DNA from: Ligilactobacillus salivarius DSM 20555 = ATCC 11741
GTDB lineage: Bacteria; Bacillota; Bacilli; Lactobacillales; Lactobacillaceae
Length of the DNA: 64,000 bases
Assembly: GCF_001435955.1 (NCBI RefSeq)
Contig: NZ_AYYT01000006.1
Location: 1-64,000, forward strand
Direction of reading: 5' to 3'
The translations under genes were made by a program, and so were the position numbers. This document shows positions 39,672-42,101 of the stretch, in pieces. The notes beneath the pieces are model-generated. The model saw nothing but the letters and a program-made list of their open reading frames with translations, did no database searches and had not been told where the DNA came from. Numbering within the stretch: position 1 is the stretch's first letter; every line of letters begins with the position of its first letter.

Positions 39672-39700
39672 TTGACGAAATAAAAATTAGGTGCTAGAAT
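39672..39700 (+). promoter_or_regulatory. Promoter of the cysteine operon leader
   Basis: TTGACG (39672-39677), a 17-bp spacer and TAGAAT (39695-39700) with extended TGC. The transcript should start near 39707 and carry about 250 nt of leader before cysK. Confidence 0.8.
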
Positions 39701-39750
39701 TGCTTACAATTAGTTAATAGACTTACATAGATGATAGGAGGAACACCAAA

Positions 39751-39834
39751 ATGCGTGAATTTAATTCAGTTGAATTAAATACATGTTGTTGTGAAGCGTG
39801 TCAATTGCGCTTCACGTTTTTGGTGTGCCAATAA
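39751..39834 (+). CDS. Cysteine-rich leader peptide of the cys operon
   Basis: A 27-residue ORF, MREFNSVELNTCCCEACQ and then LRFTFLVCQ, preceded by AGGAGG (39737-39742) at 9 nt. Five of 27 residues are Cys, four of them clustered (codons 12-14 and 17). Its stop codon lies just after a segment (39820-39826) that can pair with the 5' arm of the terminator before cysK. This is the design of a ribosome-mediated attenuator sensing charged tRNA-Cys. The peptide itself probably has no function. Poly-Cys leader peptides upstream of sulfur genes are known from mycobacteria; I know of none in lactobacilli. Confidence 0.8.
   Translation: MREFNSVELNTCCCEACQLRFTFLVCQ
39791..39821 (+). promoter_or_regulatory. 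Hairpin within the leader peptide gene
   Basis: GTGAAGCG (39791-39798) pairs with CGCTTCAC (39808-39815), followed by GTTTTT. Its 5' arm begins inside the third Cys codon, so a ribosome stalled on the Cys cluster would open it. It may act as a pause hairpin or a weak terminator. Confidence 0.65.
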
Positions 39835-39897
39835 TCTGTTTTAACAAGTAATTAGATTATAACCATAACTTATACGTAGAATCGTAATTGACACTAA
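39820..39897 (+). promoter_or_regulatory. Proposed antiterminator pairing
   Basis: TTGGTGT (39820-39826, within the leader peptide codons) can pair with ACACTAA (39891-39897). The latter is the 5' arm of the cysK terminator, and TTGGTGT repeats the terminator's own 3' arm. The 64 nt between fold locally (ATAATCT 39831-39837 with AGATTAT 39854-39860), bringing the arms together. A ribosome at the stop codon would cover TTGGTGT; one stalled at the Cys codons would not. Confidence 0.6.
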
Positions 39898-39927
39898 TCC
39901 AGTAAATTTGGGTTGGTGTCTTTTTTT
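39890..39927 (+). terminator. Regulated terminator before cysK
   Basis: GACACTAATCC (39890-39900) pairs over 11 bp with GGGTTGGTGTC (39910-39920), loop AGTAAATTT, then T7. It lies 32 nt before the cysK start and so can only be an attenuator. Confidence 0.9.
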
Positions 39928-39958
39928 ATTAACTAAAATTAATTTGGAAGTGATGATA

Positions 39959-40876
39959 ATGATTGTAAAAAGTGTCTATGAGTTGATAGGACAGACGCCT
40001 TTAATAGAGTTAGATGTGCCAGTAGCTAAAGGAAGTAGGATTTTAGCTAAGTTAGAGTCTTTTAATCCTGGTGGTAGTGTTAAGGATAGATTGGGAATAT
40101 CTTTGATTGAAGCAGCATTAAAGAGAGGCGATATTGATAAAGATACGACAATTATAGAACCCACAGCTGGTAATACTGGAATTGGCTTGGCTTTAGCAAC
40201 TCAAAAGTATCATTTAAAGACAATTTTGGTAGTACCAGAGCATTTCTCAGCTGAAAAACAAACTTTAATGAGAGCGTTGGGTGCTGAAATTATTAATACT
40301 CCTAGAGCTGAAGGCATGCAGGGAGCTTTGAGAAAAAGTCGCGAATTAGCTAATCAGATCGCTAATAGTTATATACCTAATCAATTTGAAAATAGTGATA
40401 ATCCTGATGCTTATACTAGAGGATTGGGACAAGAAATTATAGATGACTTACAAGCAATTAATTTGAAATTAGATGCTTTTGTGGCAGGTGCAGGAACAGG
40501 GGGAACCTTTGCTGGAACGGCCGAAACATTACAAGCAGAGTATCCAGAGTTAACTTCAGTAGTAGTTCAACCAGAGGGATCAATTTTGGATAATCAACCT
40601 GAACATCCTCATCGGACAGAAGGAATTGGCGTTGAGAAAGTTCCACCTTTTTTCAAAAAAGTAAAGGTTGATGAAGTTCAAACCATCAGTGATGATGAAG
40701 CTTTTAATTATGTTAAACAAATGGCACAAGATCAAGGCTTGTTTATTGGCTCTTCATCTGGTGCAGCATTAGCAGCAAGCATGCATATGGCAGAAAAATT
40801 GCCAGCAAATTCAACTATTGTGACAATTTTTCCAGATTCTAGTGAAAGATATTTAAGTGAAAATATATACGATTAA
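39959..40876 (+). CDS. cysK: Cysteine synthase / cystathionine beta-synthase-like enzyme
   Basis: A 305-residue fold-type II PLP enzyme with PLP Lys42 in NPGGSVKDR, the phosphate-binding [11 protein letters not shown] and the GTGGT loop. TAGNTG in place of TSGNTG resembles the MccA/YrhA subgroup, which joins O-acetylserine and homocysteine to cystathionine. Pairing with a cystathionine lyase supports that reverse transsulfuration role, but plain O-acetylserine sulfhydrylase activity is possible. I start at ATG 39959 (GGAAG 8 nt before); an in-frame ATG at 39953 is too close. Controlled by the Cys leader. Confidence 0.88.
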
Positions 40877-40891
40877 TCGGAGGTAAAGATA

Positions 40892-42034
40892 ATGAAATTT
40901 GAAACAAAATTAATTCATGGCGGACAAAGTGAAGATCAAGCAACAGGAGCAGTATCAATCCCTGTATATCGTTCATCAACATTCCATCAATATGAGTTGG
41001 GTGGTAATCCTAAGTGGGAATACAGTCGTACAGGAAATCCTACACGTGCAGCCTTAGAAGCGTTGATTGCTGATTTAGAGGGTGGAGTAGCTGGATTTGC
41101 CTTTGCTTCAGGTTCAGCAGCAATTCATGCTACATTCTCTATGTATTCAGCTCATGATCATTTTATCGTAGGAAGTGACGTTTATGGTGGAACTTTCCGT
41201 TTGATAAATAAAGTGTTGAAACGATTTGGTTTAGAATTTACAGTTGTTGATATGCAAGATTTGGCAGCAATTGAAAATGCAATTCAAGATAACACAGTGG
41301 CAATCTACTTTGAAACACCAACTAATCCTTTGTTACAGATTGCAGATATTTCAGCTATTACAAAGATTGCTAAGAAACATAATTTAAAGACAATCGTTGA
41401 TAATACTTTCGCAACTCCATACAACCAAAGACCACTTGAATTAGGTGCTGATATTGTAGTGCATTCGGCTACTAAATATTTAGGTGGACATAGCGATGTA
41501 GTAGCAGGTTTAGCAGTTACTAGCGACGAAGAAATCGCAGAAAAACTAGCATTTCTACAAAATTCAATCGGTAGTACATTAGGACCAGATGATAGCTGGT
41601 TGATCCAAAGAGGAATTAAGACATTAGGTGCTAGAATGAGAGTTCATCATGCTAATACTGAGGCTATAATTAAGTTTTTAGAAAATGATGGTCGCGTTGC
41701 AAGAATTCTTTATCCTGGTTTGCCTGACTTTCCTGGATATGAAGTTGCTAAGAGACAAATGGATCATTTTGGAGCGATGATTTCTTTTGAATTACAAGAA
41801 GGATTAGATACTAAAAAGTTTGTTGAAAGTTTGAAAGTAATTTCTCTTGCCGAAAGTTTAGGTGGAATTGAAAGTTTAATTGAAGTTCCATCAGTAATGA
41901 CACATGGCTCAATTCCTAGAGAAATTCGTTTGGAAAATGGAATTAAAGATGAATTGATTCGTTTGTCAGTAGGAATTGAAGATGAAGAAGATTTGATTGA
42001 TGATTTGAAACAAGCTTTGGATAAGATTGGATAA
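40892..42034 (+). CDS. Cystathionine gamma-lyase/synthase family PLP enzyme
   Basis: A 380-residue Cys/Met-metabolism PLP enzyme. It has YSRTGNPTRAALE, the PLP Lys in HSATKYLGGHSDVVAG (about residue 195) and the C-terminal LRLSVGIED-type signature (IRLSVGIEDEEDL). It cleaves cystathionine to cysteine or forms it from homoserine esters; members such as MccB/Cgl do the former. It is 15 bp downstream of cysK with GGAGG, in the same attenuated operon, which favours cysteine production. No cysE is present here. Confidence 0.9.
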   Translation: MKFETKLIHGGQSEDQATGAVSIPVYRSSTFHQYELGGNPKWEYSRTGNPTRAALEALIADLEGGVAGFAFASGSAAIHATFSMYSAHDHFIVGSDVYGGTFRLINKVLKRFGLEFTVVDMQDLAAIENAIQDNTVAIYFETPTNPLLQIADISAITKIAKKHNLKTIVDNTFATPYNQRPLELGADIVVHSATKYLGGHSDVVAGLAVTSDEEIAEKLAFLQNSIGSTLGPDDSWLIQRGIKTLGARMRVHHANTEAIIKFLENDGRVARILYPGLPDFPGYEVAKRQMDHFGAMISFELQEGLDTKKFVESLKVISLAESLGGIESLIEVPSVMTHGSIPREIRLENGIKDELIRLSVGIEDEEDLIDDLKQALDKIG

Positions 42035-42060
42035 TTATCAATTGAAATAGTAATGACAGA

Positions 42061-42101
42061 AGACATCTAAGTGTTGAAAGTATCACTTAGGTGTCTTTTT
42101 T
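42061..42101 (+). terminator. cys operon terminator
   Basis: A 13-bp stem with one G-U (42061-42073 / 42084-42096) and T6. Confidence 0.93.

Follow-up and report, generated by a model that had tools for sequence, protein, structure and literature searches.

The window analysed here, a stretch of 64,000 nucleotides of Ligilactobacillus salivarius DSM 20555 (contig NZ_AYYT01000006.1), contains a cysK-mccB operon. Upstream of the operon lies a short leader ORF with a Shine-Dalgarno (SD) sequence of its own, and an intrinsic terminator sits between this ORF and cysK (Table 1). The leader carries a run of three TGT codons, a codon type that specifies the amino acid of the operon's pathway, and the terminator has a 13-bp stem (-18.3 kcal/mol, z -6.8) placed 32 nt from the cysK ATG at 39959. 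An earlier note on this DNA had listed a promoter, a 27-codon ORF with AGGAGG and TGT-TGT-TGT, and a terminator at that distance before cysK; all of them are in the sequence, at the right coordinates. Another terminator-like hairpin, ACATCTAAGTG...CACTTAGGTGTCTTTTTT (window 42059-42099), closes the operon.

Table 1. Features of the leader region and of the operon that follows it
Feature	Position (strand)	Description	Basis
Promoter	39672-39700 (+)	TTGACG-17 nt-TAGAAT, TG extended -10	10/12 matches; consensus match only
Shine-Dalgarno of leader ORF	39736-39741 (+)	AGGAGG	SD + ATG leader kept in 77/81 orthologous loci
Leader peptide ORF	39751-39834 (+)	27 codons, MREFNSVELNTCCCEACQLRFTFLVCQ	Sequence and conservation
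Candidate regulatory codons	39784-39792 (+)	TGT-TGT-TGT, Cys 12-14	Sequence; run conserved
Additional Cys codons of leader ORF	39799-39801, 39826-39828 (+)		
Leader (protector/pause) hairpin	39790-39816 (+)	Arms 39790-39800 x 39806-39816	Covariation; beats synonymous recodings
Predicted antiterminator, 5' strand	39798-39809 (+)	GTGTCAATTGCG; helix extends at 39811-39817	Covariation
Predicted antiterminator, 3' strand	39883-39894 (+)	CGTAATTGACAC; helix extends at 39874-39881; covers the terminator's first 5 nt	Covariation
Intrinsic terminator	39890-39927 (+)	Stem 39890-39902 x 39908-39920, T7 39921-39927	Covariation
cysK, first regulated gene	39959-40876 (+)	Cysteine synthase / cystathionine beta-synthase type PLP enzyme	
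mccB/ctl, second gene	40892-42034 (+)	Cystathionine gamma-lyase/synthase type	

Orthologues of cysK with at least about 57% identity were gathered at the level of genus, family and order, and the DNA upstream of them was read. At all 81 orthologous Lactobacillaceae loci, which belong to 15 genera, cysK is preceded by a short ORF that has Cys codons in tandem, and a terminator follows 18-73 nt past the leader stop. The earlier note had expected the leader ORF and its Cys codons to be conserved together with the terminator, and both are present in 81/81 loci. When a strict ATG start and an SD are demanded, the tandem-Cys ORF is found at 77/81 loci in the sense direction, at 0/81 in the antisense direction of the same regions and in 1.1% of shuffles, the other four leaders being without such a start. 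TGT and TGC swap across the orthologues while the Cys run stays, and the residues beside the run vary by family (CCCGSRLMRP, CCSTTRFRCC, CCCTCVQSIS, CCCMVQNS). Varying flanks around a constant Cys run are what would be expected if the decoding of cysteine is what counts.

Beyond the Lactobacillaceae, a poly-Cys leader was present at 21/21 loci read from other Lactobacillales families, some of the leaders starting at TTG or GTG. It also occurs on six named plasmid records, with copies in L. fermentum, L. paracasei, L. rhamnosus, L. casei and E. faecalis. One E. faecalis hypothetical protein annotated before cysK, WP_002355203.1 (L285, 2274-2411), is probably such a Cys leader peptide. Among Bacilli outside the Lactobacillales, the leader was found at only 1 of 28 loci, most of the others lying directly behind another gene. 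This lone case, in family f18 (L295, 1224-1450), has a CCC leader and a terminator before cysK, and may reflect either transfer or a wider ancestry. A search of genome contigs covering 39 more remote cysK loci, mostly from Paenibacillus, gave no convincing leader, nor did the cysK locus of Priestia megaterium. Two assemblies show peculiarities of layout: in G001 (L060) several hundred extra bases lie between terminator and cysK, and in G025 (L041/L046) leader and cysK stand at the ends of two contigs, possibly split at a repeat.

The hairpin in the leader has its 5' end inside the third Cys codon, and the predicted antiterminator consists of a 12-bp core with an extension, 39811-39817 x 39874-39881. 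Covariation was examined in an alignment of 24 loci, picked by similarity from the larger set. In this alignment the antiterminator forms 92.6% standard pairs, with 31 cells changed on both sides vs 9.3 in shuffled alignments, and the leader hairpin forms 94.8% (15 vs 3.3). For the terminator, whose covariation in related lactobacilli the earlier note had proposed to check, the values are 91.1% and 32 vs 10.3. Control versions of the three helices, slid along the alignment, drop to 15-57% paired. At the level of sequence, three helices that would compete with one another thus all covary. The earlier note had placed the antiterminator elsewhere, pairing TTGGTGT (39820-39826) with ACACTAA (39891-39897). 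TTGGTGT does repeat the 3' arm of the terminator; this pairing, however, shows no covariation above that of shuffles (75.0% paired vs 74.8% shuffled), and the accompanying step, in which a ribosome at the stop codon masks TTGGTGT, finds no support; the masking would fall to the leader hairpin. The hairpin at 39790-39816, the longer 39798-39809 x 39883-39894 pairing and two further copies in the genome (see below) were absent from that note.

At nearly every locus, the RNA from about 13 nt past the first Cys codon onward is able to pair with the 5' arm of the terminator and the bases preceding it. The predicted antiterminator averages -19.7 kcal/mol with a locus's own leader vs -12.8 kcal/mol with leaders of other genera, the own leader being better in 15/15 genera (Wilcoxon p 3e-5), and synonymously recoded leaders also pair more weakly (-11.7 kcal/mol vs -19.7). 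The leader hairpin, too, is stronger than in synonymous recodings. The swap test is weak in g12, g14 and some g1 loci, where own and swapped leaders are not clearly separated (mean rank 0.19-0.44), because GCGC-rich motifs are common to all. These pairing tests with swapped and recoded leaders replaced equilibrium folds, which were uninformative on switching: the terminator had a median of 0.90 in the stalled state vs 0.96 in the untranslated one, and it dominates nearly every modelled state. Since the terminator is favoured at equilibrium with or without a stalled ribosome, antitermination must be kinetic, taking place during RNA synthesis. Known attenuators likewise act while the RNA is being transcribed.

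Counting from where the first Cys codon begins, the 5' boundary of the antiterminator lies at +12 to +16 nt in 58/81 loci; given the size of the ribosomal footprint, this is the expected edge of a ribosome with that codon in its A site. Sequence, covariation and boundary therefore agree on an antiterminator that would exclude the terminator, and we infer that a ribosome frees its 5' strand. That the hairpin would mask this strand once the ribosome has passed is supported by its covariation and by the comparison with synonymous recodings. The boundary also bears on a different reading, in which the leader is an arrest peptide that senses not Cys-tRNA but another signal, such as a metal, thiol or drug that acts on the Cys-rich chain as it is made, and works through the same RNA switch. 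Such a peptide predicts an identical RNA architecture, and Cys runs can bind metals; but the start of the helix fits a ribosome whose A site holds Cys1, at which point the Cys run has yet to be synthesized, the residues flanking the run differ among families with Cys alone being kept, and the reported response is to cysteine. We consider an arrest peptide very unlikely.

In our reading, to which we give a probability of about 0.9, cysK-mccB, the methionine-to-cysteine operon, is controlled by a transcription attenuator that is ribosome-mediated and responds to cysteine. This reading is based on the parts, the conservation and the helix covariation observed here, and on induction and 5'-UTR coverage reported by others for an orthologous operon; leader translation, stalling at the Cys codons and the switch itself would proceed as follows. 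With Cys-tRNA in ample supply, the ribosome would clear the Cys run and reach the stop codon, the leader hairpin would re-form behind it and hide the antiterminator strand, and the terminator would fold, so that transcription would stop near 39927. If charged tRNA-Cys is scarce, the ribosome would stall when the first Cys codon occupies the A site, covering the 5' arm of the hairpin and leaving 39798-39817 free just past its edge. This stretch could then pair with 39874-39894 during transcription, taking up five bases at the start of the terminator stem; with the terminator blocked, the polymerase would continue into cysK.

The orthologous operon is cysK2-ctl1-cysE2 of Lacticaseibacillus paracasei FAM18149. 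It was reported to be about 8-fold up (log2 about 3) in cysteine-free vs methionine-free medium, with high read coverage of its 5'-UTR and a rho-independent terminator, and the mechanism of this cysteine response was termed 'yet to be discovered' (Wuthrich et al. 2018, PMC6004538). From the plasmid record of the strain, we could read a leader, MMSQSMFNAINCCCRTTRFWRCSAC, a leader hairpin and a predicted antiterminator of -25.6 kcal/mol. The cysE-cysK operon of FAM18149 is described as constitutive (PMC6004538), and none of the cysE-cysK loci read from g12, the same genus, shows a CCC leader with an SD before it. The published data, which come from a design not aimed at leader peptides, support attenuation in that they favour it without proving it. 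Conservation, covariation and this published expression together give strong support to cysteine-responsive ribosome-mediated attenuation, the core of the earlier note.

The same study bears on two ways of controlling the operon that would not need the leader peptide. In lactobacilli, many genes for amino acids are under T-box control, and an L. paracasei plasmid is known to carry a Cys T-box (PMC6004538); this would favour control of the terminator without translation, by a T-box for tRNA-Cys or by a different ligand-binding riboswitch. However, searched against Rfam, neither the window nor a set of 20 loci has a hit at the gathering score, the T-box core/specifier domain model being absent there and the SAM riboswitch (S-box) models having no match; a T-box core motif is likewise absent upstream of every locus scanned, and the authors found no T-box in FAM18149 (PMC6004538). 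A riboswitch would also have no need of a conserved Cys-codon ORF, and we regard this kind of control as extremely improbable. The other possibility is a DNA-binding protein, LysR-type or other, acting at a palindrome near cysK, with the leader ORF being incidental. A palindromic motif, AAAGGGCGCGAA-N-TTCGCGCCTTTT, has indeed been described upstream of these genes in lactobacilli (Liu et al. 2012, cited in PMC6004538); yet in FAM18149 it is the intrinsic terminator stem itself, the stem being exactly the published motif AAGGGCGCGAAA-N16-TTTCGCGCCCTT. The terminator stem of the window is unlike the palindrome in sequence while its pairs covary as RNA, and an incidental ORF fits poorly with a Cys run conserved across all orthologous loci. 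Control by such a protein is, in our judgement, highly improbable.

The attenuator before cysK-mccB appears not to be the only one of its kind in this genome. A genome-wide search with the form TGYTGYTGY gave 18 hits, four of which are in-frame short ORFs, three of them before a gene; looser patterns (AAYNNNTGYTGYTGY and RAGG..ATG..TGYTGY) were dropped, as their chance hits were too many. The second poly-Cys leader, MSNEYQVKTDICCCGLCPTPSTI, stands upstream of cysK2 and a gene for a MetA-family acyltransferase (antiterminator -21.1), and the third, MSKFINTQCCCLVTCCPVGNMEFDMQKIRLTLPRLD, before a gene for an OppA-type peptide-binding protein (antiterminator only -14.1). The metA/cysE-cysK leader (L062, G000:C62, 300-1500) has a perfect TTGACA-17-TATAAT promoter. 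In the oppA leader (MSKFINTQCCCLVTCCPVGN...; L243, G000:C7, 1450-1820) a terminator lies before the lipoprotein gene; by DNA comparison this leader has no clear homologue in the genus, and its position suggests that peptide uptake is under cysteine control. Related leaders also lie upstream of cysE-cysK in other genera, with weaker antiterminator predictions in some; 'CC' ORFs before some cysE-cysK loci (L221, L227, L231, L236) were set aside, being without a good terminator. That a poly-Cys attenuator ancestral to the Lactobacillales controls a cysteine regulon (cysK-mccB, metA/cysE-cysK and, at least here, oppA), replacing the T-boxes or transcription factors of other Firmicutes, is a proposition that we hold to be evenly balanced.

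As a class, the mechanism is old. The trp/his-type attenuators of Enterobacteria share an SD-led leader ORF that contains codons for the amino acid produced, together with the mutually exclusive hairpin, antiterminator and terminator, but the window element reads cysteine and its host is a lactic acid bacterium; a sequence relation is not expected. Mycobacterial poly-Cys leaders are said, by the title of a 2020 paper by Canestrari et al., to be cysteine-responsive. Their ORFs are leaderless, whereas the window ORF is SD-led with an intrinsic terminator; neither mark of the mycobacterial type (a leaderless ORF, no intrinsic terminator hairpin) is thus seen in the window element. The earlier note knew poly-Cys leaders from mycobacteria alone, which is too narrow; they have also been described upstream of cysS in Rhodobacterales (PMC8632094) and upstream of cys/cbs operons in other Actinobacteria (PMC1262725). 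The former, uORFC-8-2, with 145 examples from Rhodobacterales only, resembles the window element in having tandem Cys around positions 14-15 of its short ORF, Cys codons inside a stem and a terminator with a U run, but it controls cysteinyl-tRNA synthetase rather than cysK-mccB (PMC8632094). The actinobacterial leaders share the Cys-codon runs before cysteine-synthesis genes; no terminator hairpins were found there and Rho was suggested (PMC1262725). In other Firmicutes, His leader peptides precede hisS/hisZ in bacilli (PMC2965389) and his operons (PMC9413887), and a Leu leader peptide is known in S. aureus (PMC5794164). These are likewise cases of Gram-positive classical attenuation in place of T-boxes, differing in amino acid and lineage. 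For the his genes of Lactobacillales, T-boxes are named as the usual control (PMC9413887). Our search of the open-access literature found no description of a poly-Cys cysteine attenuator in Lactobacillales.

Taken together, classical leader-peptide attenuation by cysteine would operate across a whole order in which T-boxes and LysR regulators were expected, and a proposed regulatory palindrome is re-read as a terminator stem. The attenuator would also give a concrete answer to the question of how L. paracasei induces the conversion of methionine to cysteine when cysteine is lacking (PMC6004538), a pathway that is linked to cheese flavour.
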